DNA of 64,000 nucleotides, taken from contig NZ_CP109907.1 in assembly GCF_033097525.1 (NCBI RefSeq), forward strand, positions 1,674,001 to 1,738,000. The letters are read 5' to 3'. The position numbers were made by a program, and so were the translations under genes. Origin of the DNA: Sphingobacterium sp. UGAL515B_05. Lineage in GTDB: Bacteria > Bacteroidota > Bacteroidia > Sphingobacteriales > Sphingobacteriaceae. Positions 375-11,850 of the stretch are shown in pieces (the stretch's first letter is position 1; each line of letters begins with the position of its first letter). Below the pieces are notes generated by a model. It was given only the letters and a program-made list of their open reading frames with translations. It did not search any database and had not been told where the DNA came from.

Positions 375-986
375 ATGGGAAAAATATCAGATCAGCAATT
401 AGCAGAATTAATTTCAAGAAGGACACTGGAAATCATTGATTTAACAGGATTGACAATCGAAAGCCTAGCCAGTTTTGTAGGTGTATCCACATCCACTATT
501 CGGAGCGCTTACCGTAAAACCGGTTCATTATCTGTGGATAGCCTTTCAAAAATCTGTCGGCCATTTGACATTCGACTAGCCGATTTCTTCGATTCGTCCT
601 TATCTTTAAAGATCGACGAAGAACATCTAACCCATTTAAAGGACTTTAAGAAGAGCTACTTCGCGGATCAAGAATTAAAGAGTCCGGTTTCTTCATTTGA
701 TGAAAGTAGCAGCCAGAGCGAGTACCATCGCCAGCAGCGCGAACTCATCGCCAATATTATCCACCGATCCGACTATTTCGACAGCCCGAAGACACTCGAA
801 GCGATGGTGACCGATTTTAAGAAGGATTACCAAGCGGCTTTCACATCGGAAAGATTATATGCCTTGCTGTTAAAATACTTAGGCAGTGGAATACTAGACA
901 AAAAATCTTTGCCAAGGACGGCCCGTCGTATGCCGGCCAGTAAGCGTCCTTATTTATACTTTAAAAAAGAATCTAAAAAAGCATAA
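375..986 (+). CDS. XRE-like helix-turn-helix regulator
   Basis: A 203-residue cytoplasmic protein. Residues about 25-72 form a helix-turn-helix of the XRE/Cro type (ESLASFVGVSTSTIRSAYRK, then SLSKICRPFDIRLADFF), in which the last part matches the usual 'where the domain ends in a hydrophobic F/FD' pattern. The C-terminal half (about 110-195) is charged and could be a second winged-helix module; it ends in a basic tail. It has the same overall plan (N-terminal HTH, C-terminal extra domain) as the 281-residue regulator at 26024. It stands alone on the plus strand, convergent with the AraC gene that ends 15 bp away. DNA binding is well supported; target and ligand are unknown. Confidence 0.75.
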   Translation: MGKISDQQLAELISRRTLEIIDLTGLTIESLASFVGVSTSTIRSAYRKTGSLSVDSLSKICRPFDIRLADFFDSSLSLKIDEEHLTHLKDFKKSYFADQELKSPVSSFDESSSQSEYHRQQRELIANIIHRSDYFDSPKTLEAMVTDFKKDYQAAFTSERLYALLLKYLGSGILDKKSLPRTARRMPASKRPYLYFKKESKKA

Positions 987-1001: not shown

Positions 1002-1838
1002 TTAAACCTGACGGTAGGAAAGCGGATTATTACCTGTCTGTCTTTTAAAAAAATTGCGAAAATTAGATTCATCCGAGAAGCCCATTTCATAGGAAATCTG
1101 GGATATCGAAAGGTCAGTATGCTGAATATAGCGCAAAGCCTGCTGGGCCACAACAGTGGATATCACACATTTAGCCGATTTTCCGGCGACGGCACAACAC
1201 AACTCGGTCAACTTCCTTGGAGAAAGGTGCAGACGGTCGGCATAATACTGCACACTGGTATGTTCGCGGTAGTGCTTATGCAATAAGACCGAGAATCTGT
1301 TAAACAACTGAACGGCAGCGACGTGTGCAGATGCACGGGTTGTTTCTAGCGATAGCATTGTTTGATACCCTTCGAGTAACAAGGATTCAAAGCAGTGGTG
1401 GGCAACCATCATATCGATGGTACGGTACTCAGCGCAGCATGTCAAACGCTCTACAAATAGCTTCTTGAACACCAGCTCCGTTCTATAGTCGCGCATAGCA
1501 AGAAAGGGCTGACTTCCAAAAAACAATTCTGAATTGAGTATTTCGGTATCGAGTTTAGATCTTTGATAAAAATCTGCTGTAAACCAGCATAAATATCCTT
1601 CAGCAACTATAGGTTGGTCGATCTCGACTTCATAATGTGGCCCAATAAATATGAGTTCGCTAGTCTCAAAATCATATAACGTTTGGCCAATTTTTATGCT
1701 GACAGGAGAGCCGGTTCGAATGATTGAAAAAACCGATGTATCGTGCAGCCTTTTACCTAGCTGGCTACCATACTCAGCCAGTTTTAGTGCACCAAATTGC
1801 ATCCTTTCTTTTCCTATAGCTGATTTACAAAATTCCAT
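1002..1838 (-). CDS. AraC-family transcriptional regulator
   Basis: A 278-residue protein whose last ~100 residues carry the two AraC-type helix-turn-helix motifs: YADRLHLSPRKLTELC and, near the end, ISQISYEMGFSDESNFRNFF followed by G-x-x-PLSYR. The N-terminal ~170 residues look like a cupin-like sensor domain. The annotated start lies 25 bp inside the end of the upstream response-regulator gene, so the two are translationally linked; a second Met at residue 13 (start 1802) would remove the overlap. The pairing of a REC-only protein with an AraC protein suggests one signalling unit, but there is no histidine kinase beside them. Confidence 0.88.
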   Translation of the reverse strand: MEFCKSAIGKERMQFGALKLAEYGSQLGKRLHDTSVFSIIRTGSPVSIKIGQTLYDFETSELIFIGPHYEVEIDQPIVAEGYLCWFTADFYQRSKLDTEILNSELFFGSQPFLAMRDYRTELVFKKLFVERLTCCAEYRTIDMMVAHHCFESLLLEGYQTMLSLETTRASAHVAAVQLFNRFSVLLHKHYREHTSVQYYADRLHLSPRKLTELCCAVAGKSAKCVISTVVAQQALRYIQHTDLSISQISYEMGFSDESNFRNFFKRQTGNNPLSYRQV

Positions 1839-2260
1839 TTCCTAAATAAATTCTTTTCAAAATCAATGATATCCAGATTTTCACAGAGCCTAGTGTAATG
1901 ATAGATGGAGATCAGCATTTTTCGTGGAGACTGTTTTGAGAAAACGAGCTTAACACCACTATCAAGAAACCTCTTTTTTTCATCTGCACTTTCGCTGGCC
2001 GAATAACCAAATAATCGAATCATGGGATAGCGTCGTCTTATTACGCGGGCAGTCTCCATGCCGTCCATCTCCGGCATATGCAAATCCAGAATGCACACAT
2101 CTGGCTGCTCCATATTTGTCTCAAGCAGATGCACAAGTTCCTTTCCACTGTGACAGGAATACAGCATCTCATAGTTCCCCATTTCCCTGGCCAAATGCTC
2201 AATTACTTTCAGGTGCAATACGTTATCATCTGCAAATGCAAGTTTTAATTTCTTGTCCAT
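1814..2260 (-). CDS. Single-domain response regulator (REC only)
   Basis: I start the gene at the ATG at 2258-2260, giving 148 residues; a longer in-frame ORF to 2374 exists, but its extra N-terminus has no REC character. The sequence shows the REC acidic pair (FADDN), the phospho-acceptor region ILDLHMPEMDGMETA, a conserved Ser/Thr-like position in LFGYSASES, and the late Lys in VFSK. No output domain follows; the remaining ~30 residues are a short tail. It overlaps the downstream AraC gene by 25 bp. A REC-only protein may act by protein contact, for instance on the AraC partner, or as a phosphate shuttle. Confidence 0.85.
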   Translation of the reverse strand: MDKKLKLAFADDNVLHLKVIEHLAREMGNYEMLYSCHSGKELVHLLETNMEQPDVCILDLHMPEMDGMETARVIRRRYPMIRLFGYSASESADEKKRFLDSGVKLVFSKQSPRKMLISIYHYTRLCENLDIIDFEKNLFRKWNFVNQL

Positions 2261-2480
2261 TAAGGTAACTGTTAAATTATAAATTTGAAACCTTGGATTT
2301 TTCAGTTTGGCTGTATTTGGATTTATTGCAGGAGTACATGTTGATGAAGTTATCAAAGCAACTCTCCAATACAATTAAAAGCATTTCAATTTTCGGCGCG
2401 ACATATCTCTGTTTACTGTTCATATTTCGGTCTATTATATTTTTTCAACAAGCTTGTACTAGCTATTTTAATTGTAAATT

Positions 2481-2499
2481 ATTAGTCTAATTCAGACTA
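2481..2499 (+). repeat. Left 19-bp inverted site (candidate recombination or operator site)
   Basis: The sequence ATTAGTCTAATTCAGACTA occurs here, and its exact reverse complement occurs at 2666-2684. Each copy is itself a dyad, TAGTCT and AGACTA arms around a 5-bp asymmetric centre (AATTC). Paired binding arms around an asymmetric spacer are what tyrosine-recombinase core sites look like, and a tyrosine recombinase starts 51 bp beyond the right copy. A repressor operator pair is the alternative. Confidence 0.75.
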
Positions 2500-2618
2500 G
2501 AAAAAAAACATTACATTCTGATTACAAATAAGTTAAGTAGAAAAGTTTTTGATTTCCAACTTGTCTTTTGTACAATTAAAAACATTTACTAACCGAATGA
2601 TTATTTTAAAGGCATATC

Positions 2619-2651
2619 TTGTAAGTAATTAAAAAAAAATAGTTATATTTG
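2619..2651 (+). promoter_or_regulatory. Candidate promoter between the inverted sites, pointing at the recombinase
   Basis: A perfect match to the Bacteroidota -7 box TAnnTTTG (TATATTTG, 2644-2651) lies 22 bp after a TTG (2619-2621) that could serve as the -33 element; the spacing is slightly long. It sits between the two 19-bp inverted sites and reads toward the recombinase at 2735. If the segment were flipped it would read toward the REC/AraC genes. Confidence 0.45.
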
Positions 2652-2665
2652 AATAGGTAGGATTG

Positions 2666-2684
2666 TAGTCTGAATTAGACTAAT
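2666..2684 (-). repeat. Right 19-bp inverted site
   Basis: Exact reverse complement of 2481-2499, with 166 bp between the copies. Read as a direct repeat the two copies differ at three of 17 core positions, all in the centre; read as an inverted repeat they match perfectly, so the inverted relationship is the meaningful one. Confidence 0.75.
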
Positions 2685-2734
2685 CTGTATAATCTAGTAT
2701 CTTTATGCTCAGACAATAGCAAAAAGTTTACCTC

Positions 2735-3991
2735 ATGATTTTTAATTTTACCTTATTGAATCCTACTTCAATATCATTCATCTACCTTGCATTTGTTGAC
2801 GATCAACAACAGCAGCTCCTTATTAAAACTCCTTTAAAAATTGCTCCGGTTCAATGGGACGTGGAGAAACAGCGTCCCTATAACATTTATCTGAAAAATT
2901 TTAAAAAGCTAAACACAAAGCTCGATGCACTGAAGATTGCAATATCGACTTATCTTTCTGACTTAAAGTCGAGTAAAAAGGAGTTTTCACTCCGTACAGT
3001 CAACCGCTTAGTCAAAAAATGCTGCTCAGAGGCGACGCCTTCACTTCCAGCAGGTGGACTGCTACAGAGTGTAGACAATTTTATCAAAAGCCGAATTCAC
3101 CTTATTACTTCCACCACACACAAACGCTACCTCGTCTTCTTCCGTTTATTAAAACGCTTTGAGGGGTATCAGCAAAAACATCTGATGCTAGATCAGGTGA
3201 ATAGCCTTTTTGTACAGCAATTTATTGCCTATGGTGAAGCCGAGAACTACAGTATAAGCACGATACATCGCACCATACATTTTGTGCGTACAGTACTTAA
3301 TTTTTTAGAAAAAAGAGGAGTGCGAACTTTTGTTTATGAGTTAGAACTGCCCAAGGTCAGAAAAATAAATCGTGCTATAAGCCTCAATGAAGATGAAATT
3401 AGCACAATAAAAAATATAGACGTGCCGGTCCATCTAAAAGCCGCCAAGGATTGGCTGGTGATCAGTTGTTACACGGGTCAGCGTGTGTCTGATTTTATGA
3501 ATTTTAATCTGGATATGATGGAGATTCTTGATGGCAAACCCTGTCTATCCTTTACCCAACAGAAAACACAGAAAAGCATTTTACTGCCACTTCATCCTAC
3601 GGCATTAATTATTATGTCGAATAACGGGCATCGCTTCCCAGTTAAAATGACTGCTCAAAAATATAACGAACAAATCAAGGAAGTGGCACGCCTTGCAGGC
3701 ATTACCACCCTGGTAAAAGTCAGGAAGCGGAACGGATTCCGTTCCTCAGACCAGCTTATTCCAAAATGTGAAGCGATTACCAGCCATATCGGCCGTAGGA
3801 GTTTTGCCACAAATTTTTATGGTAAAATTCCTACAGCATTATTGATGGATGCGACCGGACATAGTACAGAACAGATGTTTCAGCGGTATATCAGCAATGT
3901 GGATACCGAACGTACCCGATCACTAGGGACTTACCTGGAAAACATGTATCAAAATCGGAGCAGACCTCAACAGCAGCCACTGAGCAGCTAG
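2735..3991 (+). CDS. Tyrosine site-specific recombinase (phage integrase family)
   Basis: A 418-residue recombinase of the Bacteroidota integrase type: an N-terminal arm-binding-like region, a SAM-like core-binding domain (about 95-205) and a C-terminal catalytic domain. The catalytic set is complete and in order: Arg250 in TGQRVSDF, His351 and Arg354 in HIGRRSFATN, His376 in GHSTEQMF, and the nucleophile Tyr385 in QRYI. It should cut and rejoin DNA through a 3'-phosphotyrosine. It is not flanked by an obvious integrated element, tRNA or excisionase, but it sits 51 bp from a pair of 19-bp inverted sites, which fits a local DNA invertase (like the Tsr family of Bacteroides). It converges with the peptidase gene that ends 2 bp away. 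Confidence 0.93.
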   Translation: MIFNFTLLNPTSISFIYLAFVDDQQQQLLIKTPLKIAPVQWDVEKQRPYNIYLKNFKKLNTKLDALKIAISTYLSDLKSSKKEFSLRTVNRLVKKCCSEATPSLPAGGLLQSVDNFIKSRIHLITSTTHKRYLVFFRLLKRFEGYQQKHLMLDQVNSLFVQQFIAYGEAENYSISTIHRTIHFVRTVLNFLEKRGVRTFVYELELPKVRKINRAISLNEDEISTIKNIDVPVHLKAAKDWLVISCYTGQRVSDFMNFNLDMMEILDGKPCLSFTQQKTQKSILLPLHPTALIIMSNNGHRFPVKMTAQKYNEQIKEVARLAGITTLVKVRKRNGFRSSDQLIPKCEAITSHIGRRSFATNFYGKIPTALLMDATGHSTEQMFQRYISNVDTERTRSLGTYLENMYQNRSRPQQQPLSS

Positions 3992-3993
3992 TT

Positions 3994-5160
3994 TTACAAC
4001 TTGTTTTTCAAAGATGGTTCAAGAGCATCTTTGTGAAGCATCAAGGCTGTGCTTTTATAGCGTACATATTCTTTCGTGAGGTAGACAAAGCCCTGGAAGG
4101 CATTTCCCCTGCCCCAAGAATTCTTGGCTATATAGTATTCTTTTCCGTTTTGATCTTTTACTATGCCTATAATATGTAACGCATGATCATCTGTTGTTTG
4201 CCATGCATCGAATGCACTTTGCCGCTCCATAGCATCAACTCTACGTTCAGGTTGTGGCCTGATAAATTGCGTCTTTTTTTCTTCCTCAGTCATTTCTGAT
4301 GTTGATTTTTGGGGAACATACGCGATGCCATGAGGCCAGGAAAAACCGGGTTCCGAAATGTCAACTGTACACGCTACCGTAAAGCCATTTTTTAAAGCCT
4401 GATCGATAACAAGGGTAAGTTCTTCCATAGGAAGGTTAAAAAACTGACTGAACGACCAATTGTCGGGAATCAAAAAAACAAATGATTTGTAATAGGGAGC
4501 AGTGGTAACAGAAGCGATGTGAATATATTGATCCGGATCGATGCCTATCACCTGATCAGCAAAACTACGTGCTGTATACGATTTGCCCTTATAGACAAAA
4601 TTCACGGGAACTTTGCCCAGATAGTCATCCATGAGCAGCTCCACATCTCGCTCCCAGCTCCTTTTCAGCTCCCTGCTTTTTACCATACTGGATAGTCTAC
4701 TGTTGAGTGCAGCGCGCAGGCCCTTGAAGTTGTTCGAGCTTTTACCCGCTTTAATTCCCGTGTAGGCAGCTCTAGGCATTGCCCCATGCATACGCAGTAT
4801 CTGCATAACATCATGAAGCTGTCCACCCTCATTTAATTTTAGGCCACCGTGCAGGCGCAGGTAGTTTCTCGCTCGTTCAAGATAAGCCTTCCTGACGGTA
4901 TAGAGTGGCGAAATCGCTACAGGATCTCTACCCATTCGGATCATTTCTGATTCAAGAAAGGAATTCCCAGTATAAGACCAACAGGTATTGGAGGCTCCCT
5001 GGTTCTTCACTGTCGTACTTTTCAATCGGATCAACTCCGTAAAAACAAACTCCGACTTGAGCAACTTTATATGTTTCGGATAATAAAATCTATAAAGTAT
5101 GGCTACGGCTGCCAACATAGCAACTATGATTGCTAAAATGATCCAATTCTTTTTTTTCAT
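3994..5160 (-). CDS. Papain-like (C1 family) cysteine peptidase, membrane-anchored
   Basis: A 388-residue protein with an N-terminal membrane segment (residues about 6-23), then a C1-type peptidase domain. The catalytic residues are visible: oxyanion Gln54 and nucleophile Cys60 in NQGASNTCWS, His326 in DDHALHIIG, and Asn347 in AKNSWG. The long insert between Cys and His resembles the bleomycin-hydrolase/C1B branch more than secreted papains. The signal anchor places it in the periplasm or at the inner membrane. Its ATG overlaps the stop of the upstream acyltransferase (ATGA, 5157-5160), so the two are translationally coupled. Substrate is not indicated by the sequence. Confidence 0.87.
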   Translation of the reverse strand: MKKKNWIILAIIVAMLAAVAILYRFYYPKHIKLLKSEFVFTELIRLKSTTVKNQGASNTCWSYTGNSFLESEMIRMGRDPVAISPLYTVRKAYLERARNYLRLHGGLKLNEGGQLHDVMQILRMHGAMPRAAYTGIKAGKSSNNFKGLRAALNSRLSSMVKSRELKRSWERDVELLMDDYLGKVPVNFVYKGKSYTARSFADQVIGIDPDQYIHIASVTTAPYYKSFVFLIPDNWSFSQFFNLPMEELTLVIDQALKNGFTVACTVDISEPGFSWPHGIAYVPQKSTSEMTEEEKKTQFIRPQPERRVDAMERQSAFDAWQTTDDHALHIIGIVKDQNGKEYYIAKNSWGRGNAFQGFVYLTKEYVRYKSTALMLHKDALEPSLKNKL

Positions 5161-9471: not shown

Positions 9472-10284
9472 ATGAGCAAGAAAAAAGACAATTCTAGATG
9501 GCTGAATGTGGCCATATCCTGGGGAGCGAGTATCGTCATCATCGGGGTACTATTTAAGATTCTACATATCGGCGGCACCACAGCCAATTATATGATCGGA
9601 ATCGGTTTAGGTGTAGAAGCCTTCCTTTTCTTTTTAATGGGTTTCAATCCGCCCGCACCGGAACCAGACTGGACCCGGGTTTATCCTGAATTGGACGACA
9701 ATTTTAATGGTGAGCTACCACAAAGAGGAAAAGCTGTTGTTGCCCAACCCGCAAGTCCATCGGCCACAGCCGCTTTGGATAAGATGTTTGCCGATGCCAA
9801 TATTGAGCCCGCAAGCATTGAAAATCTCGGTCGTGGCCTGCGTGATTTTAGTGAAAAAGTATCCGCCATTAATAAGCTTTCAGATGTTTCACTTGCGACA
9901 GAAGAATTCACCAATAAGCTCCGAACAGCAACTTCAAAATTTGACAACCTAAGCAACGCATTTGAAAAAGCGTCTGAAAACTTAGTCGCCATGTCAAATA
10001 CTTCCGGTGATACATCCAACTACCACGAGCAGGTAAAAAGTCTAACAACCAACCTAAGTCAATTAAATGCAATGTACGAGCGTGAATTACGCGATTCGGC
10101 CTCACATTTACAATCGATGAACAAGTTTTATGAGAACCTAAGCTTTACCATGCAGAACTTCAACGAATCGCTGGATGATTCCAAAGCATTTAAAGATGAA
10201 GTGGGCAAGCTAGCGAAAAACCTCAATGCCTTAAATGCCATTTATGGCAACATGTTGAGCGCGATGAATCAACCGCGTGTGTAA
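9472..10284 (+). CDS. gldL: Type IX secretion / gliding motor protein GldL
   Basis: 270 residues. Two closely spaced membrane helices at the N-terminus (about 11-30 and 38-58; ASIVIIGVLFKILHIGG and MIGIGLGVEAFLFFLMGF) with the conserved Glu inside the second are the hallmark of GldL/PorL. A Pro-rich PAPEPDWTRVYPEL segment follows, then a long cytoplasmic coiled-coil-prone region. GldL with GldM forms the proton-driven rotary motor that powers type IX secretion across the outer membrane. gldM follows after 30 bp. gldK and gldN, normally immediate neighbours, are not here but near 50 kb. Confidence 0.95.
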   Translation: MSKKKDNSRWLNVAISWGASIVIIGVLFKILHIGGTTANYMIGIGLGVEAFLFFLMGFNPPAPEPDWTRVYPELDDNFNGELPQRGKAVVAQPASPSATAALDKMFADANIEPASIENLGRGLRDFSEKVSAINKLSDVSLATEEFTNKLRTATSKFDNLSNAFEKASENLVAMSNTSGDTSNYHEQVKSLTTNLSQLNAMYERELRDSASHLQSMNKFYENLSFTMQNFNESLDDSKAFKDEVGKLAKNLNALNAIYGNMLSAMNQPRV

Positions 10285-10314
10285 TTAATTCTTGTATCAC
10301 TTAAATCAAAAAAA

Positions 10315-11850
10315 ATGGCATTAGGAAGAGAAACTCCAAGACAAAGGATGATTGGCATCCTCTATCTGGTCTTGCTCGCCTTATTGGCGCTCAATGTACC
10401 GGATTCCATCTTGGATGCATTCAAAAATATCAACAACAGTCTCGAAACATCCAAATCGAATGTCAGCACAGCCGTTCAACAACTGTTCACAGCGTTCGAA
10501 AACACCAAACTAAAAGAAGAACCCGCACGTGCCAAACCGATCTACGACAAGGCAAAAAAAGCGCAGGCTATTATTGGAGAACTCAATCAATATATAGGTT
10601 CTTTAAAAGAAGAGTTCGTTAAACAAGGTGGTGGATACGATGAAGAAAAAGGCGATCTGGCCCAACGTGAAAACGAGGATATCTCCCCCAACCTCATGAT
10701 CAATGAGAAAAAAGGAACTATTTTAAAAGATAAAATCAATACAACACGTACTAAACTGTTGGCCCTACTTACACCTGAAGAACAAAAAATGGTTTCGTTC
10801 TCTCTGGAGGCGAAAGATCCCGAGAAATCTGTAAACGGTAAAAAATCCTGGGAAGAAATTAATTTCGGCAGTGGCACACCTTTGACCGCAGCGATGACTA
10901 TTTTAACCAAAATTCAGACAGATGCACAAAATGCAGAATCTGACGTGGTGAAGCTCATCTTAGGCAAAATGGATCAGGCCGTGGTGAACCTCGATAAATT
11001 TGCAGCGGTTGCTGTAGCTCCCACATCTTATTTGGTGCAAGGACAGCCCTATAAAGCCGAAGTATTTCTGACGGCATCTGATTCCAAATCTGAACCGGCC
11101 ATTTCTGTTAATGGATCATCACTGCAGGTGGTGGATGGAAAAGGTGTTTATTCGGTCAACACCAGTCGGGAAGGTATCTATACCTGGACCGGTGTGATCA
11201 AAGTAAAACAAACCGACGGATCTTATAAAGAATATCGTACCCCTGTACAGACCTACCAAGTAGCTCGTCCTTCGGCAGTGGTATCACCAGACAAAATGAA
11301 TGTACTGTATATCGGTGTCAACAATCCTATTTCAGTATCAGCTCCGGGTACATCTACCGATAAAATCCGTGTCAGCATGAGTGGCGGTAGTATTTCAAGT
11401 GCTGGTGGCGGTAAATATAATGTGAAGGTAAGTTCACCGGGTACAGCACATATTTCAGTATCCGCAGAGGTAGCACCTGGAAAAACACAGACCCTGAGTT
11501 CGACAGAATTCCGTGTGAAACGGATTCCGGATCCTATTGCCAAGTTTGCCGGTAAAACAGGTGGTTCAATGGCTACGGTAGCACTTAAAGCGCAGAATGC
11601 TCTTTTTGCAAAACTGGATAACTTTGACTTTGATGCAACCTTCAGGGTCACCAAATTTACCATGATTATTGCTAAACCACGCGCGGATGCCATTGTGTTA
11701 TCGACTTCTGGAGGCCAGCTGAGTTCGGCCATGTCTTCAGCCCTTAATGGTATTGTACCAGGCACACGCGTTATCTTCGACAATATTGTTGCCGTGGGCC
11801 CAGATGGGACTTCCAGACAGCTCAATGCAGTTGCTTTAACAGCAAATTAA
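10315..11850 (+). CDS. gldM: Type IX secretion / gliding motor protein GldM
   Basis: 511 residues beginning MALGRETPRQRMIGILYLVLLALLALNVP, the conserved GldM/PorM N-terminus with a single inner-membrane helix that inserts between GldL subunits. The rest is periplasmic: a helical segment (about 30-220) and then several beta-rich domains with Gly/Ser-rich strands (about 220-511), as in known GldM structures. It spans the periplasm to reach the GldK/GldN ring. It forms a two-gene operon with gldL, closed by a strong hairpin at 11876-11911; the usual next gene, gldN, is absent here. Confidence 0.95.
   Translation: MALGRETPRQRMIGILYLVLLALLALNVPDSILDAFKNINNSLETSKSNVSTAVQQLFTAFENTKLKEEPARAKPIYDKAKKAQAIIGELNQYIGSLKEEFVKQGGGYDEEKGDLAQRENEDISPNLMINEKKGTILKDKINTTRTKLLALLTPEEQKMVSFSLEAKDPEKSVNGKKSWEEINFGSGTPLTAAMTILTKIQTDAQNAESDVVKLILGKMDQAVVNLDKFAAVAVAPTSYLVQGQPYKAEVFLTASDSKSEPAISVNGSSLQVVDGKGVYSVNTSREGIYTWTGVIKVKQTDGSYKEYRTPVQTYQVARPSAVVSPDKMNVLYIGVNNPISVSAPGTSTDKIRVSMSGGSISSAGGGKYNVKVSSPGTAHISVSAEVAPGKTQTLSSTEFRVKRIPDPIAKFAGKTGGSMATVALKAQNALFAKLDNFDFDATFRVTKFTMIIAKPRADAIVLSTSGGQLSSAMSSALNGIVPGTRVIFDNIVAVGPDGTSRQLNAVALTAN

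Follow-up and report, generated by a model that had tools for sequence, protein, structure and literature searches.

A probable promoter-inversion switch between a tyrosine recombinase gene and a regulator pair in Sphingobacterium

A perfect inverted repeat that encloses a promoter-like motif, and that lies between a recombinase gene and two divergently transcribed regulator genes, raises the question of whether the recombinase turns the enclosed segment over, and which genes would be served in each orientation. Such a locus is found in Sphingobacterium sp. UGAL515B_05, within the 64,000 nucleotides analysed here (contig NZ_CP109907.1, positions 1,674,001 to 1,738,000; hereafter the window, with position 1 as its first letter). 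Judging from the sequence of this locus and its relatives, we consider it very likely to be a site-specific DNA inversion switch, in which the neighbouring recombinase would invert a promoter segment so that it faces either the recombinase gene or the REC-AraC pair. The relevant features are:

375..986, plus strand: Cro/C1-type HTH protein, adjoining the AraC gene; a neighbour in 13 of 24 Sphingobacterium loci
1002..1838, minus strand: AraC-type regulator, 278 aa, downstream of REC (PF12833, AraC-type HTH)
1814..2260, minus strand: single-domain response regulator (REC), 148 aa, divergent (PF00072, E 8e-16)
2481..2499, plus strand: putative left recombination site ATTAGTCTAATTCAGACTA, arms AGTC/GACT, centre TAATTCA, from sequence, repeats and mirrored centre
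2500..2665, no strand: putative invertible segment, 166 bp, from the repeats, a flipped promoter half in the relative G021 and the assembly of the relative G060
2619..2651, plus strand: putative promoter of the Bacteroidota type; TTG 2619-2621, 22-nt spacer, TATATTTG 2644-2651; faces the recombinase
2666..2684, minus strand: putative right recombination site, the inverted copy TAGTCTGAATTAGACTAAT, from sequence, repeats and mirrored centre
2698..2705, plus strand: second promoter-like box TATCTTTA, outside the right site, which would not invert; from motif recurrence
2735..3991, plus strand: tyrosine recombinase, 418 aa (Pfam Phage_integrase, SAM_5, sub-threshold Arm-DNA-bind_5)

The site pair, the segment and the recombinase

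In the mechanism that we propose, the recombinase (2735-3991) would bind the two inverted sites at their AGTC/GACT arms and exchange strands within the 7-bp centre, with inversion of the 166-bp segment as the outcome; the one promoter recognised in the segment would transcribe the recombinase gene in the present orientation and the REC-AraC pair (2260-1002) once flipped. Inferred here are the role of the recombinase as catalyst, the activity of the promoter, flipping in this strain and a dependence of REC-AraC expression on orientation. Two marks of an inverton are present: the inverted repeats, which bound a promoter motif, and the crossover centres, which are identical in the inverted register.

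The protein scores above the Pfam cut-off for PF00589, and its Arm-DNA-bind_5 match, at 21.9 bits, is below the cut-off of 22.6. R250, K277, H351, R354, H376 and Y385, the six catalytic positions R-K-H-R-H-Y, are invariant in all 34 aligned proteins; with the PF00589 catalytic domain and these residues, the gene encodes a tyrosine recombinase. NCBIfam holds no specific invertase family that it matches, with XerD/XerC and related models far below cut-off, and a search by sequence at E 0.01 returned no relative of solved structure.

The initial annotation had placed a perfect 19-bp inverted repeat around a 166-bp segment, and its coordinates hold: the copy at 2666-2684 is the exact reverse complement of that at 2481-2499, and the match reaches 22 bp if one mismatch is allowed. 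The starts that it gave for the recombinase (ATG, 2735) and for REC (ATG, 2260) are likewise confirmed, as is its promoter-like pair facing the recombinase, of which TATATTTG ends about 15 nt inward of the right site. The genome is a single 6.36-Mb contig, and the exact site pattern TAGTCTnnnnnAGACTA is present at only two places in it, both at the 2481-2684 locus. Further copies of the 19-bp site, which the same annotation had suggested looking for, amount to a pair of near-matches: those elsewhere in the genome with one or two mismatches are confined to a second pair, beside a paralogous recombinase gene at 5.08 Mb. With up to three mismatches there are 17 matches in total versus 38 for the reversed control pattern, and the three-mismatch matches show no excess over that control. 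At the paralogous locus the recombinase is 61% identical, the two inverted sites share the centre CAATTCA, and REC and AraC genes are again divergent.

The locus also contains a 17-bp direct repeat (16 of 17 positions), with one copy outside the segment (2370-2386) and one inside it (2571-2587). It was considered as a regulator site and set aside, being recognisable in the four closest relatives only.

Sites and promoter boxes in related loci

In 93 genomes of the genus, the matches listed include 28 loci whose recombinase is at least 48% identical. One locus from Chryseobacterium soli and three from two genomes of one other family (two in G113, one in G384) bring the total to 32, counting recombinases of 44% identity and above; the latter three came from 395 genomes drawn across the class and searched at E 1e-60. 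In 28 of the 32, both inverted sites are intact upstream of the recombinase; outside these are G060, whose pair is on two contigs, G007, with one site, G022b, with no site, and G072, whose contig starts about 50 nt before the gene and is too short to assess. The 15-bp cores are 168 bp apart here, a spacing shown by 12 of the 28 loci, and 128-203 bp apart in the others.

The initial annotation had claimed that the site centres are conserved only in the inverted orientation, and the survey agrees: the 7-bp centre is identical in the inverted register in all 28 loci and in the direct register in none. Eight centres occur (TAATTCA, CAATTCA, TAACGCA, CTACCGA, CTGACTA, CACACCA, CTAACAA and TTTTACA), which differ mutually at 1-6 of the 7 positions, and the pair in G060 adds a ninth mirrored centre, CTACTGA. 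The arms AGTC/GACT are constant, apart from a single base in G098b and another in G060. Each site had been described as arms TAGTCT/AGACTA around a 5-bp centre; the paired arms and the asymmetric centre stand, but the relatives narrow the constant arms to AGTC/GACT and widen the centre from 5 to 7 bp. Mirrored centres are required by strand exchange and not by an operator pair, and they therefore support inversion; the recurrence of the site pair, with such centres, beside related recombinases also means that the pair is not a product of chance. Loci that are related do not count as independent cases, but in the recombinase tree, several forks of which are unsure, different clades have different centres, which makes several separate paired changes of centre likely.

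The arms by themselves are weak evidence, since a genus-wide search for AGTC N7 GACT at a spacing of 150-180 nt gave 19 pairs in 18 of the 93 genomes and the reversed control gave 10; it is the mirrored centre together with the neighbouring recombinase that carries the case. All but one of the 19 pairs are mirrored and belong to surveyed loci; the nineteenth, in G079, is not mirrored. An AGTC/GACT pair was found near none of the more distant recombinases examined (about 28-38% identity), neither at five loci of the genus nor at six others; the five were inspected among the matches listed at 34% identity or less. The search that gave the C. soli locus otherwise returned loci of the genus set again and two distant matches (26 and 29%), which are outside these counts. 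This recombinase is probably the agent of the flip, by linkage: the sites lie beside its subfamily and are absent beside the 11 distant recombinases.

Four of the six distant loci, L141 (G369) among them, lie near other, unrelated inverted repeats, one of which is about 27 bp long. At the single-site locus in G007 (L101), the recombinase match begins 144 nt after the site, and the two flanks are joined through this one site with no promoter segment between them, which leaves the recombinase without the inner promoter.

The promoter box recurs along with the sites. TAnnTTTG starts 15-23 nt before the right (recombinase-side) core in 26 of the 28 loci, compared with 1% of shuffled segments, and 17 of these 26 have a TTG 17-24 nt upstream of the box; the remaining two loci, in G078 and G010, have no exact match to TAnnTTTG at the box. 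An opposite-facing TAnnTTTG inside the segment was found in none of the 28 loci, the one reverse match, in G042, spanning the segment edge. Outside the segment, 24 of the 28 loci have a motif TAnnTT(T/C)(A/G) at a distance of 11-16 nt from the right core, its final base being A and not G in 18 of the 24. This motif was picked after inspection and without a shuffle control, and the outer box is accordingly a lead only; an upstream element of TATCTTTA would possibly overlap the right site. A scan of window 1800-2900 for intrinsic terminators found none, with 0.4 expected.

Orientation in relatives and the rival readings

The initial annotation had also proposed comparing the orientation of the segment between related genomes. 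All 26 loci with a recognisable box are assembled with the promoter facing the recombinase, and the flipped form is found in G021 and G060.

Directly beyond the left flank and left site, G021 has the promoter half of the segment turned round (L018, about 3852-3916) and then a DDE transposase element. The recombinase gene is missing, as are the counterparts of the next two genes of the window, and the order resumes with the gene that comes after them (matched by eye); the sole recombinase match in this genome, at 31% identity, is on another contig. The inversion must have come first, since a deletion from the standard orientation would leave the other half of the segment. The inverted box has decayed from TATATTTG to TATCTTCG and AraC is shortened to 232 aa, versus 278 aa, which makes the arrangement a relic; on its sequence, it is best described as a flipped form frozen by the transposase element that replaced the recombinase.

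In G060 contigs C26 and C28 each stop exactly 127 nt inside the outer boundary of the perfect repeat, with an overlap of 101 nt, which is the geometry that would arise if contigs ran 127 nt into a 153-nt repeat from either side. Among the 40 ends of contigs C1-C20, taken as a control, nine pairs share a terminal stretch, seven of exactly 127 nt, one of 122 and one of 51, so that 127 nt is the usual depth to which contigs of this assembly enter a repeat; the pattern is not identical, as the switch ends dovetail by 101 nt whereas the control pairs share the terminal 127. A 150-nt query taken from the segment found no other copy in the G060 genome. The assembler handled the segment as though it were a repeat, the likely reason being that the reads contained both orientations; the mixture was probably uneven, because the contigs run past the repeat arm into one orientation. 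As deposited, G060 has the flipped order relative to G014; its recombinase is 51% identical and its divergent gene is a different one.

Both orientations thus appear to exist in nature, among relatives, with G021 as a relic and G060 through its assembly. The earlier claim of an invertible promoter is supported by the mirrored centres, by the segment in G021, which is inverted exactly at the site, and by the assembly break in G060. The same observations tell against the plain alternative offered alongside that claim, an operator pair for a repressor. In such a reading there would be no inversion, and the repressor might even be the recombinase. Each site is quasi-palindromic and close to a promoter, as operators would be, but covariation in the mirrored register at 28 of 28 loci is needless for operators, and the flipped arrangement in G021 and the both-orientation signature in G060 are left unexplained. 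A scattered repressor operator was rejected after searches of this genome at zero and three mismatches, which gave no excess of single sites over the reversed control, and we regard the operator explanation as very unlikely. A mobile element integrated here, with the repeats as its attachment sites and the recombinase as its integrase, is scarcely credible: the recombinase does have the domain make-up of an integrase, but the sites are inverted, only 166 bp apart and both on one side of the gene, a promoter is all that was recognised between them, and the gene order recurs across species. If selection on recombinase expression had since fixed a once invertible segment in place, both here and in many relatives, that would account for the uniform orientation of the 26 boxed loci; we judge this improbable, since a dead switch would have no need of the site centres and the six catalytic residues that have been kept, and G060 appears mixed.

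There is also the question of what the recombinase gene itself depends on. The inversion may be real and yet act as an ON/OFF switch for REC-AraC only, with the recombinase on a fixed outer promoter and the inner one incidental, and the outer box, found in 24 of the 28 loci, would indeed stay with the recombinase in both orientations. We think this rather unlikely, given that all 26 recognised inner promoters point at the recombinase, that window 1800-2900 yielded no terminator-like site, and that the outer box is a post-inspection motif with no shuffle control, ending in A in 18 of 24 loci. The reading that we prefer, a choice between self-expression of the recombinase and expression of the regulator pair, follows from the gene order and the promoter motif, both of which recur in relatives, and to this extent the recombinase/regulator switch of the initial annotation stands. 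Its simplest self-silencing form does not fit: such a latch predicts that the flipped state accumulates, and the 26 of 26 recombinase-facing loci argue against it. With all of these facing the same way, inversion may be rare or biased in culture. The uniformity could be due to a flipped state that in culture does not last or carries a cost, to inversion that is infrequent or under regulation, or to a fixed recombinase source that restores the default; the outer box beyond the right core is a candidate for such a source. A conserved self-controlling circuit, in which the flip would cut the recombinase supply and start the regulator pair, and either a weak fixed promoter with an upstream element that overlaps the right site or the regulators would restore the default, is possible, and we put it forward tentatively; pulses of REC-AraC from a default recombinase-ON state fit the uniform orientation of the assemblies better than a latch does.

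Known switches and the genes around the locus

Promoter inversion by tyrosine recombinases is well known. The fim switch of E. coli feeds back via transcripts that reach fimE and is not known to do so via an invertible promoter aimed at the start of a recombinase gene, and the recombinase that acts on the CmrRST system of Clostridioides difficile is encoded elsewhere. Invertons of gut Bacteroidota were reportedly described by Jiang and colleagues in 2019.

The systems ipuS and CmrRST are closest in logic to the Sphingobacterium switch. At ipuS of uropathogenic E. coli CFT073, a flipped promoter drives ipuR, of the LuxR type, and a surface gene, an autotransporter; the likeness lies in promoter inversion by tyrosine recombinases encoded alongside, in the driving of a regulator gene, and in an orientation that also alters a recombinase gene, by C-terminal truncation of IpuA (PMC6083910). 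The ipuS repeats differ in being 7 bp long, one of them inside recombinase coding sequence, and 5' RACE of the element gave a product in the locked-ON strain only (PMC6083910). The Sphingobacterium promoter, when off the regulators, would instead point at the start of the recombinase gene. CmrRST is a phase-variable signal-transduction system with response regulators, so that it too switches through regulators, and its description deals with the orientations of an invertible element, but it belongs to another phylum and comprises a histidine kinase and two response regulators (PMC6837544). In the fim switch, too, orientation feeds back on a recombinase that flips it, through what is called orientational control (work cited in PMC2845655).

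Within the Bacteroidota, the gut invertons share short inverted repeats, a Bacteroidota promoter motif inside them and invertase genes nearby; the gut survey describes nearby invertases as generally oriented beyond the drive of the inverton promoter, with group 145 as a potential exception, whereas the Sphingobacterium-type promoter faces the recombinase in all 26 boxed loci (PMC11892184). The capsule promoters of Bacteroides intestinalis also lie in segments of 183-186 bp between inverted repeats; they differ in having 10-bp repeats, which resemble those of the serine recombinase Mpi, and in being upstream of capsule operons (PMC8375218). A search of the open-access literature by title found no earlier account of an invertible promoter or phase variation of this kind in Sphingobacterium. 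What would be new here is an invertible promoter connected with the gene of its own invertase and, in most Sphingobacterium loci, with a regulator pair as well. A promoter aimed at its own likely invertase is found in many Sphingobacterium species, in Chryseobacterium soli and in two further relatives, and the family resembles a naturally occurring circuit in which a recombinase regulates itself and in which the bias of switching would be directly measurable; its different 7-bp centres provide a set of matched recombinase and site variants.

The genes on the far side of the segment are less constant. Among the 24 Sphingobacterium loci with an intact pair, a divergent REC gene is present in 21, followed by AraC in 19 and alone in two; neither is found in G013, G014 and G087, and in the first two of these the divergent neighbour is a 138-aa gene. 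The divergent neighbours in C. soli, at the two loci of G113 and in G384 include small secreted-looking and HTH-like proteins (by eye). The recombinase module is therefore constant while the genes that face it vary.

At one of the G113 loci (L135), secreted-looking proteins of 212 aa and at least 1,586 aa are divergent from the recombinase (by eye), the latter length being a minimum as the gene reaches the edge of the fetched stretch; the arrangement suggests surface phase variation in this lineage. In G078, G044 and G088 a small secreted-looking protein is also encoded after REC or REC-AraC, in the same direction and 1-2.3 kb upstream of the recombinase (by eye), and could be part of the switched operon. 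Beyond the recombinase, and convergent to it, the window encodes a papain-like (C1) cysteine peptidase at 3994-5160 (Pfam), and the same gene follows the recombinase in three close relatives (L024, L025 and L027; by eye). Further along, at 9472-11850, are two genes that we take to resemble the gliding/type IX secretion components GldL and GldM.
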